DNA of 64,000 nucleotides from Desulfoscipio gibsoniae DSM 7213 (GTDB taxonomy: Bacteria; Bacillota; Desulfotomaculia; Desulfotomaculales; Desulfallaceae), in NCBI RefSeq assembly GCF_000233715.2, contig NC_021184.1, positions 4,150,001 to 4,214,000 of the forward strand. The letters run 5' to 3'. The translations under genes were made by a program, and so were the position numbers. Under the pieces are notes generated by a model, which saw only the letters and a list, made by a program, of their open reading frames with translations, was not told the DNA's origin and searched no databases. This document shows, one piece after another, positions 24,584 through 36,269 of the stretch. Every line of letters starts with the position of its first letter. Within the stretch, counting starts at the first letter, position 1.

Positions 24584-25235
24584 AGCAAATACCTCCTACT
24601 ATATTACTATATTTAATTTATTGCCCTTTATGGTTATCTATAGTCGTATTATATATTAAAATAAATATTAACATAAAAACTACAATATATAAAACCCTTT
24701 TTAACTCCCTTTATCTGTGTCAATTAGCCATAAAAACACAAAGACCCTGCCTAACGCAGGATCTTGATGTTTAAATGAACTTATAATCTATACAAACATT
24801 AATTATTAATAACAGTTAAATGCACTTCGCAGATTAACAGATCATACTACATTAGCATACCTGTGGACAGTTTAACGTCATACCCGGGACTTAAACGGGC
24901 ATCCCCCTTTACAATGTACCACCGGACGGAGCATATATGGTTTCCTCATCATCAAAAATTTTCACCTCCCACTATATTAATTAGTACATTCGAAAAATCC
25001 CAAAGCCTTGCAAATACAGGCTTTATTTTTTTGCCTTTTGAGGCTTCACCTCAAAAAACAATTAATTTTATGTCCCATCGTAATTATTAGGTATGGCTAT
25101 TATTAAAAAGATATCTGGGTTTAAATGAATTAAATAGTGATTCACGGTCATTTTACCTGCTTGACAATTCTAAAATCGCTCCAAAATTGAATTGGAAGCT
25201 ATTTCCAATATATCGGTTTGAAAGGAGTAGATTTT
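24584..25235. other. Gene-poor region before the transposase
   Basis: AT-rich, with a weak palindrome around the AGACCCTGC/GCAGGATCT pair near 24741-24763 and the terminator at 25002-25032. No gene above 25 codons with a ribosome site is supported. Confidence 0.5.
25002..25032 (+). terminator. Orphan intrinsic terminator
   Basis: AAAGCCT / AGGCTTT with a 9-nt loop followed by ATTTTTTT. A second hairpin (TTTTGAGG / CCTCAAAA) follows at 25035-25058. No plus-strand gene precedes it within 3.5 kb, so it may end a small RNA or remain from a lost gene. Confidence 0.55.
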
Positions 25236-26771
25236 ATGTTAGTTGTCAAGTATTCTCATGAGCAGTATCAAGATTTCGTTTGTGATTTTTTAACTCGCTA
25301 TTATATTTCGACCGGCCAGCAGATTACTATCGTAACTAAAGCTTCTTTAGTTGTTAAACTTTGGGGTGCCGATCTTACCGGCATTGTTAAGCTTATTAAA
25401 AACCGGTATTCAAGGGCTAATCGGGGCATCCCACCCAAAGATGCGGTGGCCTTGCTTCGCTCGCTTATCCTTATGACTTTTACTGGTGAAACCAGCATCC
25501 CCAAGTGGGTGGATTCTTTAAGGTCTGATCCTTTTCTTGCTGTTTTATCTGGTTTTTTGCCCGCCTGCTTTTCTACTGTTAAAGTTGATGATGTTCCGGC
25601 AGATCCTATCCCGGGCGTGGGTACTTTTTATAATTATATGGATAGGCTGATTCGTAAGAATCGGATCCTTTACAAATCGAAGCTGCGCAAGCTCAAGCGT
25701 AAGCCTAAAAAGAAGCAGAAGAAAAATCAGAAACTGGATTCATCCAAGCCCGGCGTAGTGGAACGCCTGGTTAATAGGGTGCTAAAATACAATAATGCCA
25801 AGCTCCCTGGTAATCTGGAATCTACTTTAAACCAGATTCTAAAAGATGTTTTTGTTATGCCATCCTTAGCCAGGGGTATCCTTGGCGACCCTAATAAATT
25901 GAATGTCGCCGCTGATGGCACTTGCATGCCTACTCATGCCTCTTACTACGGCAAAAAGGTTTGCAATTGTAAGTTAAAGCCCGGCGAACGTTGCGATTGC
26001 CTCCGCTTATTCGCTGACCCCTCTGCCTCTTGGGGTTGGGATAGTTACAATGAGCGTTACTTTTATGGCCATACTTTTCATGGCTTCACTGCTTGTGACT
26101 CTTTCTACAGCTTACCTATCCATATAAAATGTGTTTCTGGTGAACGTCATGATTCGGTAACTAGTGTTTATGAACTTAAAGAGCTTGTGGATTTGTACCC
26201 AGGGATTAATTTTAATGCTGCTGTTTACGATTCGGCTTATGACGCTAATCCATTCTATCTTCTCAATATGCATTATGGCATCAAGCCCGTTATTGATCTT
26301 AACGCTCGGGCTTCTAAGCCTGATGCAGTGAGTGATTTTATTGAATTTGATAAAAAAGGGATCCCTCACTGCAAATGTTTAGGACACCAATTACGTAACT
26401 GGGGCCTAATGTCCAAGTCCTTCAGACGAAAGTGGCTTTTCCCTGTGCAATGTAATTCCTGTGATAAGTGCCATTTATATAGCGAAAAAACGTTTTATAC
26501 AAAAACAAGTGATAACCCCAGGTTCTTTACGCCTATTTTAAGGGGCTCGGATGAGTGGAAGCAGCTTTACAAAAGACGCTCTACCACCGAAAGGGCCTGG
26601 GACAGAATCAATAATGATTTTAACGCTGAATCTGCCGTTGTTTTTACCCGAGAACGTAGGATAGTTAGAGTATTTCTTGGTGCTTTCTGTTGTTATGTTG
26701 ATGCATGGGCTGGCGAGAGCACCATTTCAATCACTGATATATTTCCTGTCCTTTCAAGGTTCGCTGCCTAA
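25236..26771 (+). CDS. DDE transposase
   Basis: About 511 residues. A likely DDE triad: D in NVAADGTCMPTH, D in AAVYDSAYDANPFY, and E in STTERAWDRIN. A cysteine-rich insertion (CNCKLKPGERCDC) and a second one (CNSCDKCH) resemble zinc-binding inserts. A lysine-rich linker (KLRKLKRKPKKKQKKNQK) separates the N-terminal domain. ATG 25236 has AAAGGAG nine bases upstream. The frame is uninterrupted, so it may be active. I could not find convincing inverted repeats in the 150 bp on either side, so the ends of the element are unknown. Confidence 0.85.
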   Translation: MLVVKYSHEQYQDFVCDFLTRYYISTGQQITIVTKASLVVKLWGADLTGIVKLIKNRYSRANRGIPPKDAVALLRSLILMTFTGETSIPKWVDSLRSDPFLAVLSGFLPACFSTVKVDDVPADPIPGVGTFYNYMDRLIRKNRILYKSKLRKLKRKPKKKQKKNQKLDSSKPGVVERLVNRVLKYNNAKLPGNLESTLNQILKDVFVMPSLARGILGDPNKLNVAADGTCMPTHASYYGKKVCNCKLKPGERCDCLRLFADPSASWGWDSYNERYFYGHTFHGFTACDSFYSLPIHIKCVSGERHDSVTSVYELKELVDLYPGINFNAAVYDSAYDANPFYLLNMHYGIKPVIDLNARASKPDAVSDFIEFDKKGIPHCKCLGHQLRNWGLMSKSFRRKWLFPVQCNSCDKCHLYSEKTFYTKTSDNPRFFTPILRGSDEWKQLYKRRSTTERAWDRINNDFNAESAVVFTRERRIVRVFLGAFCCYVDAWAGESTISITDIFPVLSRFAA

Positions 26772-27969: not shown

Positions 27970-28045
27970 TGGTGACCCATCCGCGACTCGAACGCGGGAC
28001 ACCCTGATTAAAAGTCAGGTGCTCTACCAACTGAGCTAATGGGTC
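27970..28045 (-). tRNA. tRNA-Lys (anticodon TTT)
   Basis: 76 nt including the encoded CCA. Acceptor GACCCAT/ATGGGTC, T stem CCGCG/CGCGG with TTCGAGT loop, anticodon loop CTTTTAA. Last gene of a three-tRNA transcript. Confidence 0.97.
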
Positions 28046-28073
28046 ATATGCGGCCACCTTAAAGCGGCCATTT

Positions 28074-28148
28074 TGGCTGGGGCGGCTGGATTCGAACCAA
28101 CGAATGACGAGTCCAAAGCCCGTTGCCTTACCACTTGGCTACGCCCCA
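28074..28148 (-). tRNA. tRNA-Gln (anticodon TTG)
   Basis: 75 nt including encoded CCA. Acceptor TGGGGCG/CGCCCCA, discriminator G, T loop TTCGAAT, anticodon loop with TTG. Middle gene of the cluster. Confidence 0.97.
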
Positions 28149-28154
28149 AAAAAC

Positions 28155-28232
28155 TGGGGTGGATGATGGGATTTGAACCCACGACCCCCAGAGCCACAAT
28201 CTGGTACTCTAACCATCTGAGCTACATCCACC
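28155..28232 (-). tRNA. tRNA-His (anticodon GTG)
   Basis: Acceptor GTGGATG/CATCCAC with an encoded extra G(-1) opposite discriminator C73, the identity feature of tRNA-His, and an encoded CCA. T loop TTCAAAT. First gene of the cluster. Confidence 0.97.
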
Positions 28233-29936: not shown

Positions 29937-30125
29937 TTATGATTCGGTAATTGAAACAGCACCATTCGGACAAACGCTTACGCAGGTTTCGCAGCCCAGG
30001 CAGTCATTGGGATCACCGGCTACGGTAGCTTTATCGCCATCCATTTCCAAAATTTCAGCCGGGCAGGATGCAGTGCATTCGCCGCAACCTTCGCATTTAT
30101 CCGGGTCGATTTGTACCATGAACAT
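29937..30125 (-). CDS. 2[4Fe-4S] ferredoxin
   Basis: 62 residues with two CX2CX2CX3CP motifs (CEGCGECTASCP and CLGCETCVSVCP), the bacterial low-potential ferredoxin pattern. It carries single electrons between cytoplasmic redox enzymes. GGAGG precedes ATG 30125 by about seven bases; an in-frame ATG two codons later is possible. Monocistronic. Confidence 0.96.
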   Translation of the reverse strand: MFMVQIDPDKCEGCGECTASCPAEILEMDGDKATVAGDPNDCLGCETCVSVCPNGAVSITES

Positions 30126-30399: not shown

Positions 30400-30921
30400 T
30401 TACTCTTCCAATGTGAACTCCCACGCACAGTGGCAGCCATCTTGAAGTTCATCCGGCGGGCAACAGATGCACCGGATGCTGATACGCGGGTCAATGGCAC
30501 GGGCAAAGCCGCTGTATTCCACCAGCCCCACCGGTTTGCACGGGAAAAAGTCCATTTTTTTGCGCTCCCGCGCCGCCTGTACCCGGCAGGCATTCATCCG
30601 AAAAACCAGCTTGTTGGGCGCCTGGCGGATAATTTCCTGTTTGTTTAAAAAAGCATATAAGCGGAACCGCAAAGCCTGGTCCAGCGCGTCCAGACCGCCT
30701 TGTTCGGGCAGGCCGAGAAACTGTTTAATCCGGTTGGCTTCCAGGACAGTGAACTTATCCCAGGCATCAGAGTCAGCATCAATAGCGTTTTCCAGGCCGT
30801 ATTTTTTTTCTACAGCCTGAAACCACAGACCGTCATGGGCCAGCCAGCGTTTGCTCAAATCGGTTACAAAATCAATCAATTGCTCCTTGGTCAGATCCTG
30901 AATATTTTTCATTTGTGGCAC
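30400..30921 (-). CDS. DUF6125-like cysteine-rich protein
   Basis: About 173 residues. N-terminal helical part (LTKEQLIDFVTDLSKRWLAHDGLWF) and a C-terminal part with several cysteines (CRVQAARERK, FFPCKPVG, IRCICCPPD, DGCHC) that could ligate a metal cluster. I believe this matches the DUF6125 group of anaerobic Firmicutes; no function is established. GTG 30921 is preferred, with GGAGGG seven bases upstream; an in-frame ATG at 30912 is further. Confidence 0.7.
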   Translation of the reverse strand: MPQMKNIQDLTKEQLIDFVTDLSKRWLAHDGLWFQAVEKKYGLENAIDADSDAWDKFTVLEANRIKQFLGLPEQGGLDALDQALRFRLYAFLNKQEIIRQAPNKLVFRMNACRVQAARERKKMDFFPCKPVGLVEYSGFARAIDPRISIRCICCPPDELQDGCHCAWEFTLEE

Positions 30922-31053
30922 AATACATCCCTCCATAAGTACTTTATTTATTATTTAGCAAAATAAACAAGCAAAAAATATGCCAAACCCGAAGCATATA
31001 TGCTTAACACCACAACTCCGGCGGCATCCCCAAACCATAATACAGCAAATAAT

Positions 31054-31096: not shown

Positions 31097-31924
31097 TTAT
31101 GCTCCGGTAAGTATGACCTTTTTCACCCGGTCCATCAGGCTGCCGGCAAAGGCCTCCGCGCCAACATCGATCTGCGGCCCGTAGCCAAAACCCAAAGCCA
31201 TGTCGGTAAGAATTAATTTAACGGCTTGCATGCGGCGGCGGTGGAATTCCCGGTGGTCAATTTGCTCCTCGTCAATGCCCAGCTTACCACGCAGCATGTC
31301 CGGAGCGAATAAAAAGGGCATCAGCATTTGCATTATCTTAGGGTTCATCCACTCCCGGCACTGTAGTACCCGGGCCGCGTAATCAATTAGTTCGGTATAC
31401 TGGTCCGACATCTGGTAATACTCCTGGGCACCGGCATCTTCATACCATTCCTGCACCGTCCAAACCCGGTCTGCTGTATGGCCCAGGCAAAACTGCATGC
31501 GGTCAACCATGAAAACCCGCTCTTCTTTACTGCACTCATCACCATCGCGGTTGTAGCGCACCGCGCGGCCCAGGGGAAATGTGCGACAGTTCCGGGACCG
31601 GGCAGTGTAAATAGAACATTTACCATCTTCAAGCATAAAGGCGCAGCGGCCATTGGCGGCGTGGGCCAGCCACACCATAGGCCAGCCGGTATCCCGGTCG
31701 GGTTCCATCTCACAATAATTACTAAAAAACTGCTGGCCGGGCATATCAAGGTGCCGGGCCATAACTTCCACATCCCACGGGTCCAATAAAATAGTAATGT
31801 TTTGACAGCACCGGCCCATACACTCCGACCCACAAGCAAAGGTAAAACTGTCCTCCATGTTCAGCTGTTTCAAGGTGTCATTGGCCAGCTTGTCCATTAT
31901 CCCCCGCTGAAAGTCAAAAACCAT
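31097..31924 (-). CDS. YkgJ-family cysteine-cluster protein
   Basis: About 275 residues. The CxxxCxxxCC core (CGSECMGRCC) and downstream CAF, GKCSIYTARSRNCRTFPLG cysteines match the YkgJ/Fe-S-or-zinc-binding cluster family (UPF0153). A longer helical C-terminal domain follows. ATG 31924 has AGGAG eight bases upstream. It lies 31 bp after the putative selenoprotein gene, with no terminator between, so the two are probably co-transcribed. Role unknown. Confidence 0.85.
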   Translation of the reverse strand: MVFDFQRGIMDKLANDTLKQLNMEDSFTFACGSECMGRCCQNITILLDPWDVEVMARHLDMPGQQFFSNYCEMEPDRDTGWPMVWLAHAANGRCAFMLEDGKCSIYTARSRNCRTFPLGRAVRYNRDGDECSKEERVFMVDRMQFCLGHTADRVWTVQEWYEDAGAQEYYQMSDQYTELIDYAARVLQCREWMNPKIMQMLMPFLFAPDMLRGKLGIDEEQIDHREFHRRRMQAVKLILTDMALGFGYGPQIDVGAEAFAGSLMDRVKKVILTGA

Positions 31925-31955: not shown

Positions 31956-32447
31956 TCATACCACAATCACATTATAACACAGAGGCTTTACACCGCTCCC
32001 GCCCGCTCCTGTTACGTCAAGCAAAGTGAGACCATTGCTTGAAACTACATCTGTCACGGCAAAATAACCATCCCAGTACCGGTGCTGGTCAAAGGGCTTT
32101 TCCGCCCCCAGCATAACTTTATCCCAGCTACTGCCAAAATGATGGTTAAACTCCTTTTTGAAGGTGTATTCATCATCCGCATCCGGCAGATCGGTCCACA
32201 CGGCCTTTAGCTTGCCCACGGCAACAACTTTACGGGGCCAGTCTCAGCCCGGCTCGTAAAAATAGACGGGCACGGCATTACTCATATCCCCGGTATTAAC
32301 TTTTTCCAACAGGCCGCCATCCATGGTACCAAATACAACTAGCCCCCGGGCTGCTCCAATGTGGCCGGCAGCGGCCAGCTGCGCCCGGTTGATGGCGGCC
32401 AGTATGATTTGCGCCGGTTGTTGTTCTCTTTCCTGTTCCCTGGCCAA
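31956..32447 (-). CDS. Putative selenoprotein of unknown family (in-frame UGA)
   Basis: Read on the minus strand, one frame runs from TTG 32447 (AAAGGAAG upstream) to TGA 31956-31958, 163 residues, interrupted once by TGA at 32244-32246 (codon 68). Both sides look like real protein: VPVYFYEPG before and DWPRKVVAVGKLKAVW after. The hairpin TTGCC-GTG-GGCAA starts 20 nt after the UGA; its loop begins at nt 25, the same position and core as in the peroxiredoxin at 42957. Selenocysteine insertion is thus the favoured reading; an ordinary nonsense mutation is the alternative. Residues 70-163 are hydrophilic with a HHFGSSWDKVMLGAEKPFD block. I recognise no homologue. Confidence 0.55.
32212..32224 (-). 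promoter_or_regulatory. Candidate bacterial SECIS hairpin (unknown protein)
   Basis: TTGCC / GGCAA with loop GTG; the loop G is 25 nt after the UGA at 32244-32246, within the 16-37 nt range described for bacterial SECIS elements with a G in the first loop positions. Confidence 0.5.
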
Positions 32448-32740
32448 GTCATCGCTTCCTTTGCTGATCTATTGCTCCAAATAGCAAGTATACCTCCGCC
32501 CTCACGAACATTAGGGGCATCCGGGCAACCCAGACGGCGAAAAAGTGGTGATAATATAAATAGCCCCGCTAAAGTGTAATGCATAAGGGTACCCCGGAGA
32601 TTTCCCCTCTCACTGCGACACATGCCGACAGGCATTCTTAATAATTAATTCACTTCTTAAGTTAAATATCCTGCCGGGTAGCATTGGATACTGTAATTGG
32701 ATACAACAATAAAAGTTGAGCAGACAGCGGACATGGACAG

Positions 32741-34666: not shown

Positions 34667-36269
34667 CTCAACTTTCGCAGTTCAAAAATCAGTCTAACCC
34701 CTTACAAAATAAGAATTTAGGCCAACTTTTTTAAGCAAAAACAAACAGAAAACACGCCTTTTTTGGTAAAATGTAGTCACCACAACAACACACCAAGAAA
34801 GGATGTTTTCTGTGGCTATAATTTTACCAAAAAATGATAACAATGAACAGGCTAAATCTTATTCTGATCGGTTTATAAAGCAGGCAAAAATAGGAACCTT
34901 TTTGCACCAGGCGAATATCCGAAAAGAATCCGGTCTATCGCCATTGTTCCTTTTCCAATTTATCTTTTCCCTTGTATTTCAAGGGAAAAATCTTTATCGA
35001 ACATTGGAGTCAGGTCGTATAGATAACGCTCCTTCCAAAGATGCGATATATCGTTTTCTAAACAGGCCTACATTCAATTGGCGGAAATTTCTTGTTACAA
35101 TCAGCTCATTTCTCATCAAAACAAGACTTTTACCCCTGACATCAGAGGGCCGGGCTCGTGTATTGATTTTAGACGACTCTACTTATTCCAGAAACCGTAG
35201 TAAATCGGTTGAATTATTGTCCCGGGTTCACGATCATTCAACAAATCGGTATCTGAAAGGGTTTCGGATGCTGACCTTGGGTTGGTCTGATGGTGGAACC
35301 TTTCTGCCCCTTGCGTTCTCTCTGCTTAGCTCTGATAAAGAGAAAAATCGTTACCAGGGGCTAAATCAAAGGATTGACAAACGGACAGTTGGATACCGCC
35401 GTCGCAAAGAAGCTATTCAAAAATCCACAGAAACTATGTTCTCGCTTCTCGACCAAGTGAACCCTTTTCAACTTTGTGCGAGTACCCTGCTTTTTGATAG
35501 CTGGTTTGCCTTTCCAGTCGTAATCAAGCGGGTGCTGACAGAATACCATTTGCATGTTGTTTGTATGCTCAAGAATATGCACCGCGTTTATTACACCTAT
35601 AATGGAAGCGAATATACATTGGGTCAACTTTACAAAGTTCTTCGCAAAAAACGCGGGCGGGCCAAGATTCTATCATCCGTCGTTGTCGGGCTTGGTAAGG
35701 CCCAAAACGGAAATGACGTTCTGGTAAAAATCATCTTCGTTCGAGACCGTAACCGCTCAAAAAAATGGTTGGCAATCTTAACAACAAACCTTGAGCTATC
35801 TGATGAAGAAGTTATCCGTATTTATGGCAAACGCTGGGAAATCGAGTGTTTCTTCAAAGTCACAAAGTCCCATTTGCATTTGGCAAAGGAATTCCAGTGC
35901 CGTAGTTATGATGCGCTTACTGCTCATACCACCATTGTCTTTGTGCGATATATCATGCTGGCTTTAAGTGCCAGAGAGGAGAAAGACCCCAAGACCCTTG
36001 GCGAGCTCTTTTATCTGTGTTGCGATGAAATTGAGGATATTCGCTTTACCGAAGCTGTTCTTTTAATCATAGATCTTTTCGCCTCATCATTTAGCAAGGA
36101 ATTTCTTCTTTCTGAAGAACAAATTCAACATTTTTTGGATACGTTTTTCGAGCAATTACCTGCCTTTCTGAAAAGTTCGCTTCAGAAAAGAGCAGTTGCT
36201 TGATATTAATAATTCCAAAACGCTTGCATATTAAGAGCTTGAGCTTATTTTTAAGGTGCGAAAGTTGAG
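34667..36269 (+). mobile_element. IS4-type insertion sequence, complete
   Basis: 1603 bp bounded by perfect 13-bp inverted repeats CTCAACTTTCGCA (34667-34679) and TGCGAAAGTTGAG (36257-36269). The 7-bp sequence TATTTAA flanks both ends (34660-34666 and 36270-36276), a target duplication showing clean transposition. The element encodes one intact transposase. The 7-bp duplication would suit the ISPepr1-like part of IS4. Confidence 0.95.
34812..36203 (+). CDS. IS4-family transposase
   Basis: 463 residues, uninterrupted. DDE residues: D in VLILDDSTYS, D in LLFDSWFAFP, and E in the YGKRWEIECFFKVTKSHL signature (YREK-type). GTG 34812 is preferred, nine bases after AAGAAAGG; the in-frame ATG at 34803 abuts the ribosome site. 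Probably functional. Confidence 0.9.
   Translation: MAIILPKNDNNEQAKSYSDRFIKQAKIGTFLHQANIRKESGLSPLFLFQFIFSLVFQGKNLYRTLESGRIDNAPSKDAIYRFLNRPTFNWRKFLVTISSFLIKTRLLPLTSEGRARVLILDDSTYSRNRSKSVELLSRVHDHSTNRYLKGFRMLTLGWSDGGTFLPLAFSLLSSDKEKNRYQGLNQRIDKRTVGYRRRKEAIQKSTETMFSLLDQVNPFQLCASTLLFDSWFAFPVVIKRVLTEYHLHVVCMLKNMHRVYYTYNGSEYTLGQLYKVLRKKRGRAKILSSVVVGLGKAQNGNDVLVKIIFVRDRNRSKKWLAILTTNLELSDEEVIRIYGKRWEIECFFKVTKSHLHLAKEFQCRSYDALTAHTTIVFVRYIMLALSAREEKDPKTLGELFYLCCDEIEDIRFTEAVLLIIDLFASSFSKEFLLSEEQIQHFLDTFFEQLPAFLKSSLQKRAVA

Follow-up and report, generated by a model that had tools for sequence, protein, structure and literature searches.

A probable new family of selenoproteins encoded by an apparently interrupted gene of Desulfoscipio gibsoniae

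Is a gene that appears to be broken by a stop codon in fact intact, with the stop encoding selenocysteine (Sec)? The question is raised by a locus in a 64,000-nucleotide stretch of the Desulfoscipio gibsoniae DSM 7213 genome (contig NC_021184.1, positions 4,150,001 to 4,214,000; hereafter the window), for which a reading made without database searches had proposed a new selenoprotein family. When the locus was translated from the TTG at 32447 to 31956 with TGA as U, it yielded 163 residues with a single internal TGA at 32246-32244 and a terminal TGA at 31958-31956, so the 163-codon frame interrupted solely at that codon is borne out. The sequence-only reading had been silent on the strand, which is the minus strand, and its observation otherwise stood. 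The ribosome site that it placed ahead of the TTG can be seen as an AGGA (Table 1), and its expectation that a gene finder would see fragments was met by a plain ORF list, in which the gene is split into ORFs of 67 and 87 amino acids. Based on the sequence and its homologues, and without data on selenium incorporation, we infer that the seemingly stop-broken gene is almost certainly intact and that its stop encodes Sec.

Table 1. Features of the locus, numbered from the first letter of the window
Feature	Position	Strand	Basis and remarks
Predicted selenoprotein gene	31956..32447	(-)	Translation, homologues, AlphaFold model; 163 residues, Sec at 68, TTG start
In-frame UGA, predicted Sec codon	32244..32246	(-)	TGA kept in homologues of the class and of a second lineage
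Putative SECIS hairpin, UUGCC-GUG-GGCAA	32212..32224	(-)	Covariation, base-pair counts, synonymous-shuffle test, published limits
Apical loop GUG of the SECIS hairpin	32219-32217	(-)	
Putative ribosome-binding site, AGGA	32457..32460	(-)	Sequence; 9 nt before the TTG start
CxxCxxCC (YkgJ-like) gene	31097..31924	(-)	PF03692, 4.3e-09; likely ATG 31924; mechanical ORF from TTG 31966

Conservation of the in-frame UGA

The joined window protein was searched against 200 relatives, and the family was found in 46 genomes. A profile built from 32 members (A1) was run over the 113 genomes of the window's class and gave 50 matches, again in 46 genomes. Two of these matches are fragments, one an N-terminal half (L092) and the other a decayed copy with two TGAs (L075b). 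Among the 48 full-length copies, 46 contain one in-frame TGA in the same column, no other stop occurs within them, and the TGA persists in A1 members as little as 34% identical to the window protein. The gene is absent from four of six congeners, and a search at the level of the phylum matched eight of 398 genomes, all within the window's own class. Members were also found in a second lineage, which the title of one record labels as deltaproteobacterial: a phylum-level search matched 3 of 395 genomes, and one class yielded 6 of 85. All six full-length members from this lineage (L160-L165) carry the TGA, and one of the six genomes additionally holds a C-terminal remnant (L166). Decayed copies (L092, L166 and a second L075 locus in genome G024) indicate that the gene decays repeatedly.

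Homologues with either Cys or Sec at residue 68 had been anticipated. Sec is what the full-length copies of the class (46/48) and of the second lineage (6/6) predict, and the Cys form did not materialise: none of 49 aligned rows (the 48 class copies and L036, from the second lineage) has a Cys codon at the Sec site, where there are 47 TGA, one Ile and one Ala codon. The two exceptions, L086 (ATC, Ile) and L087 (GCG, Ala), each reside in a genome that also has a Sec copy, and in the tree they branch among Sec copies, with good support for L086 and weak support for L087. Compared with L088, a Sec-containing relative, both show dN/dS of about 0.18 to 0.25, indicating that purifying selection has been retained. 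Sec has thus apparently been lost twice to residues other than Cys while selection was retained. Because the two copies remain under purifying selection without Sec, part of the function is inferred to be independent of it.

The sequence around the UGA is also conserved. The motif EPG-U-DWPRK suggested for the window protein held in that its flanks are conserved, but the exact motif is not that of the family, for which the majority sequence is YFYExGUxxxRxVxAVG (A1); residues F100, F104 and W108 are invariant (A1). Thirteen pairs of copies, two of them involving a non-Sec copy, were compared over the part of the gene after the TGA: dN/dS was 0.087-0.315 in 12, and synonymous sites were saturated in the remaining pair. 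Both halves of the gene evolve under purifying selection.

The tree places the copies from host families f1, f3, f12, f13 and f18 each in a clade of their own, and scatters those from f7, f9 and f17 over several branches. L036 groups with a member from the Bacillota (support 99/90), and transfer of the gene between phyla is therefore likely, as judged from the sequences. That L036 might be a binning error was considered and dropped when further members were found in its lineage; the locus is probably real. A scan of contigs with six patterns returned nine loci, eight of them on contigs already known from the homologue searches, with the proviso that one pattern called for Cys codons at the Sec site and was blind to TGA copies. 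On viral contigs 22 stretches fitted a pattern and none was a relative, although this pattern likewise called for Cys codons at that site and would have missed TGA copies.

A covarying hairpin and the Sec insertion machinery

A hairpin, TTGCC-GTG-GGCAA, had been noted after the UGA; it is present, and its loop begins at the 25th nucleotide past the UGA. Covariation was analysed in 42 main members (L036 together with 41 of the 46 class copies that bear the TGA) over the 51 nt from the UGA, which align without gaps; the five divergent Sec copies were left aside, and the other five second-lineage members are not in this set. For a helix model of seven pairs with a 3-nt loop, 96.6% of cells were paired versus 88.1% after shuffling, 26 helix cells were double-changed versus 6.3, and helix covariation was 0.352 versus 0.172, none of these values being reached in any of 500 shuffles. 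The count of pairs showing a double change in at least one comparison was less distinctive (4 versus 2.8, reached by 49 of the 500), and registers slid along the alignment all scored lower, with covariation of at most 0.162. We note the caveat that kinship among sequences can by itself surpass such shuffles. Counted outward from the loop, contiguous pairs number seven in 33 of the 42 members, six in five, five in three (including the window) and three in one.

Because the stem lies within codons, a synonymous-shuffle test was added. The mean z was -2.8, with p<0.05 in 32 and p<0.01 in 23 of the 42 members; the window hairpin gave p = 0.063. Codon choice within the stem is skewed: Ala is encoded by GCC in all 42 members (40% elsewhere in family genes), and Gly by GGC in 40 (31% elsewhere). 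The covariation of the hairpin exceeds what the protein sequence requires.

Unconstrained folding of the 48 nt from the UGA produced the hairpin in 33 of the 42 main members, leaving nine without it, and the fold energy was -7.5 kcal/mol or below in all 42. The window element has a GUG loop 24 nt from the UGA, a stem of 5 bp and an energy of -11.9 kcal/mol over the 48 nt; the hairpin stretch alone accounts for only -4.6 kcal/mol. The limits for bacterial SECIS elements given in PMC13188914 are a loop of 3-9 nt with G in its first two positions, a stem of 4-16 bp, a distance of 16-37 nt from the UGA and an energy of -7.5 or lower. The window element falls inside these limits if the whole 48 nt are folded.

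Members outside the main group vary in their hairpins. In the second lineage GCG is found in two of six stems, leaving a 5-nt loop, GGUCG. In the divergent subfamily (L082-L085 and L088) a clean stem of 6 bp capped by a loop of 4 nt forms in four of five members, three of these loops reading GGUN, and the fifth member folds otherwise. In those four the loop starts 17 nt from the UGA versus 24 nt in the main group, that is, 7 nt closer; two SECIS placements thus exist inside one protein family. L087, the Ala copy, no longer folds the hairpin of the divergent subfamily.

The D. gibsoniae genome contains a candidate tRNA-Sec (67.9 bits, cut-off 47; C1:2125971-2126065) and, about 30 kb from it, SelB (390.6 bits, cut-off 242). 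The tRNA-Sec search was unspecific, with matches in 14 of 14 control genomes and above the cut-off in five; because every control matched, a single match is weak evidence. Across the class, all 46 family-bearing genomes have a candidate with an E value of 1.2e-9 or better, and the family is absent from each of the seven genomes in which every candidate is weaker (hypergeometric p = 0.023). This association is no more than supportive, since the threshold was set post hoc and five of the seven genomes are less than 90% complete.

From these elements we propose that the ribosome would read the UGA at codon 68 as Sec, with the stem-loop in the coding sequence, its loop starting from the 25th nucleotide past the UGA, recruiting SelB with Sec-tRNA(Sec). 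The element, tRNA-Sec and SelB are seen in the sequence, and their action is inferred. A SECIS element and its SelB can form a pair peculiar to one species. Although no selenium incorporation was measured, we have very little doubt that Sec is inserted at residue 68.

Two other accounts of the UGA were weighed and rejected on the conservation of the TGA, selection, the covarying hairpin and the machinery. That the halves are separate genes, or that the stop is a recent mutation in a pseudogene, is what the 67- and 87-residue ORFs of a standard list would suggest. The GTG in the loop, found in 29 of the 42 main members, could serve as an alternative start for the second half, and the decayed copies L092, L075b and L166 show that pseudogenes of the family exist. 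Such an origin is nevertheless very improbable, as the TGA persists to 34% identity with no other stop in full-length copies, selection acts on either side of it, one predicted domain covers both halves, and a simple stop would not need a covarying hairpin. Readthrough of the UGA with insertion of an ordinary amino acid such as Trp could draw on the two paralogues in which the site is Ile or Ala, and on the lack of Cys forms, without which nothing marks the position as a chalcogen site. We find this equally hard to credit, given that the hairpin covaries and has a G-U loop at SECIS distance, that the window's genome has SelB, and that all 46 family-bearing class genomes have tRNA-Sec candidates (under the post hoc threshold).

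Predicted fold and possible roles of the Sec residue

An AlphaFold model built on A1 had a pLDDT of 91.9; a second, for a divergent member that shares 26% identity with the window protein, had 95.0. In the first model one predicted domain spans residues on both sides of the TGA. Its best PDB matches were AF2351 (2kku; Z 7.3, rmsd 3.8, 117 residues aligned) and ZmASCH (5gus; Z 7.0), followed by YTH domains, THYN1 (EVE) and others, and the second model likewise matched AF2351, ZmASCH and YTH domains with Z up to 7.6. Among the matches listed, VIA-align Z ranged from 5.2 to 7.6, with none reaching 8. The 50 VIA-align rows listed for each model all appear to belong to the PUA/ASCH/EVE/YTH superfamily. 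Foldseek gave no match with an E value of 0.001 or below for either model, unrelated chains appeared from rank 9 on for the first, and the tool warns that possibly only a common arrangement is being detected. No thioredoxin-like structure was among the matches listed for either model. With all Z below 8 and no Foldseek E of 0.001 or below, the fold is likely and not proven; we consider there to be a good chance, on the strength of the models, that the product folds as one small domain, a PUA/ASCH/EVE/YTH-like beta-barrel.

Sequence comparisons did not support membership of this superfamily. The EVE (PF01878) and ASCH (PF04266) models matched none of the 32 members at E values up to 1, and a profile search of PDB sequences gave a sole match with E 0.6, which was disregarded. 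An hhalign comparison with EVE proteins from relatives (13 of 14, one having been dropped for unreadable residues) was not significant (probability 0.6%, E 0.1); its best local alignment, also non-significant, sets YFYEPGU on the EVE segment FIYHTGK. A search for EVE found no match in the window's genome, and a search for ASCH in 60 relatives found matches in nine genomes, the window's not among them. Membership of the EVE family was rejected on the hhalign result and the lack of a Pfam EVE match. The family resembles the superfamily (ZmASCH 5gus, AF2351 2kku, THYN1, YTHDF2) in predicted fold over most of the domain, at Z below 8, but is unlike it in failing the tests of sequence membership and in having Sec in a loop.

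In the model the predicted Sec occupies a loop after a strand ending in Tyr64, and a weak alignment suggests that this loop may lie beside the nucleic-acid cleft of ZmASCH and EVE proteins. According to PMC5615036, Tyr47, Thr49, Arg50 and Lys53 of ZmASCH touch RNA in simulation, in the case of Tyr47 by way of water; nucleic-acid binding is lowered when Tyr47 and Lys53 are mutated, and Tyr47 is reportedly conserved in EVE proteins. If Tyr64 corresponds to this Tyr47, Sec68 would by inference fall among those RNA contacts. Most likely the selenol would serve by itself, with no partner Cys being obligatory, as a nucleophile or redox centre for a ligand bound in the cleft, perhaps a modified nucleobase or nucleotide. 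Chemistry on a nucleobase or nucleotide ligand is a tentative suggestion that we consider unlikely as it stands. Slightly more doubtful still is the full proposal that the selenol sits in the base-binding cleft of a nucleic-acid-reader fold and acts on a modified nucleobase or nucleotide in a way that Cys cannot, removal or exchange of a thio, seleno or alkyl group being one example. Were it true, chemistry beyond the reach of Cys would account for the lack of Cys forms in either of the two bacterial lineages. The Ile and Ala copies may have kept binding without chemistry, both activities being inferred.

Beyond the Sec site, Cys is found in at most 19 of the 49 rows in any column (alignment column 21). 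It lies two residues past Sec (UxC) in eight rows, and replaces Tyr64, four residues before the site, in seven, namely L086, L087 and five divergent Sec copies. The five Sec copies are the divergent subfamily L082-L085 and L088, in which the Tyr before the Sec loop has become Cys (CxxxU). Because no Cys besides the Sec site is common to most members, an internal selenenyl-sulfide cycle is unlikely as a general mechanism.

The next gene had been placed 31 bp downstream, and this holds: it encodes a CxxCxxCC protein, with its likely ATG at 31924 and a match to PF03692. It adjoins the selenoprotein gene in 13 of 48 loci (after it in 11, before it in two), all in host families f1 and f13. This is the most widely shared neighbour, and there is no partner gene common to the whole family. 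An attempt to derive function from neighbours, including Pfam searches of five window genes, failed for want of any neighbour beyond 13/48 loci. Further downstream of both genes on the same strand are genes for a DUF6125 protein (window 30400-30936), second after the selenoprotein gene in three of 48 loci, and a small 4Fe-4S ferredoxin (29937-30125). Elsewhere the window contains a Lys-Gln-His tRNA cluster on the minus strand (27970-28231), where the overlying short ORFs are probably spurious, and two long ORFs (34803-36203 and 25218-26771) that look transposase-like from translation alone.

The data do not decide between nucleobase or nucleotide chemistry, a lone redox centre working with outside thiols, and metal binding together with the CxxCxxCC neighbour. 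The protein could be a selenoprotein of a general redox kind, peroxidase- or reductase-like, with an incidental PUA-like fold and no nucleic-acid ligand. In favour are the expectation that most uncharacterised selenoproteins will prove to be redox proteins (PMC13188914), a host that is an anaerobic sulfate reducer (PMC4148979) and the scattered Cys columns at +2, 21 and -4. We regard it as a serious possibility, at somewhat less than even chance, as no Cys besides the Sec site is common to even half of the members, no thioredoxin-like match was found among the structures listed, and no redox partner gene is common to the family. Sec as a ligand for a metal or metalloid (Fe, Zn, Hg, As), perhaps passed on to the CxxCxxCC protein, seems improbable. 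The neighbour in 13 of 48 loci does encode a putative Zn/Fe-chelating domain, and PMC13188914 puts families with predicted binding at the Sec site at about 20%, with about 70% of the interactions being with metals. However, that neighbour is confined to f1 and f13, and the alignment has no conserved His/Cys cluster near Sec.

Novelty and implications

In summary, we are confident that the whole is best explained by a selenoprotein of an undescribed family, in which the UGA at codon 68 would be read as Sec by way of the hairpin and SelB, and the product would adopt a PUA-like fold. The sequence-only proposal of a new family with Sec at residue 68 gains support from the conservation of Sec and its flanks and from the absence of a catalogue match. 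Pfam and NCBIfam searches at E values up to 1, run with C in place of U, gave no match common to more than one of the 32 members, and no selenoprotein model was among the families listed. None of the 119 prokaryotic selenoprotein families in the 2026 catalogue (PMC13188914, Table 1) could be matched by name or motif, and none of the nine new families of PMC12013277, all with Cys homologues there, fits, judging from their names. We found no prior description in the literature, within a coverage that leaves out most subscription journals, preprints, supplements and the groundwater-MAG candidates (PMC13188914 reference 66). The family is thus very probably new; its lack of Cys forms is unusual, and its fold may be so too.

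Like known bacterial selenoproteins, as described in PMC13188914, this family combines an in-frame UGA, an in-frame hairpin within limits and Sec machinery in the host. Nearly all of those described there have Cys homologues, whereas none was found here, and the characterised ones are mostly thioredoxin-like, whereas this one is predicted to be PUA-like. The nearest precedent is a Geobacter cytochrome candidate of 2007 (PMC1914089), which was likewise put forward as a family of selenoproteins lacking homologues of any non-Sec kind; that is a heme protein for which the authors found no SECIS, whereas here the protein is a different one and its SECIS covaries. Strategies that are independent of SECIS seek Cys/Sec pairs (PMC13188914); they would miss a family without Cys forms, which may explain why this one was overlooked.

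Annotation is affected at once, as standard ORF rules yield two fragments. Judging from their names, no PUA-like fold is known among the catalogued selenoprotein families. If the predicted fold holds, the PUA-like superfamily, set against the families tabulated in PMC13188914, may have its first selenoprotein here. More selenoprotein families without Cys forms may remain. Cys may be unable to stand in for Sec in this family, a case relevant to the question, taken up in PMC13188914, of why Sec is retained.
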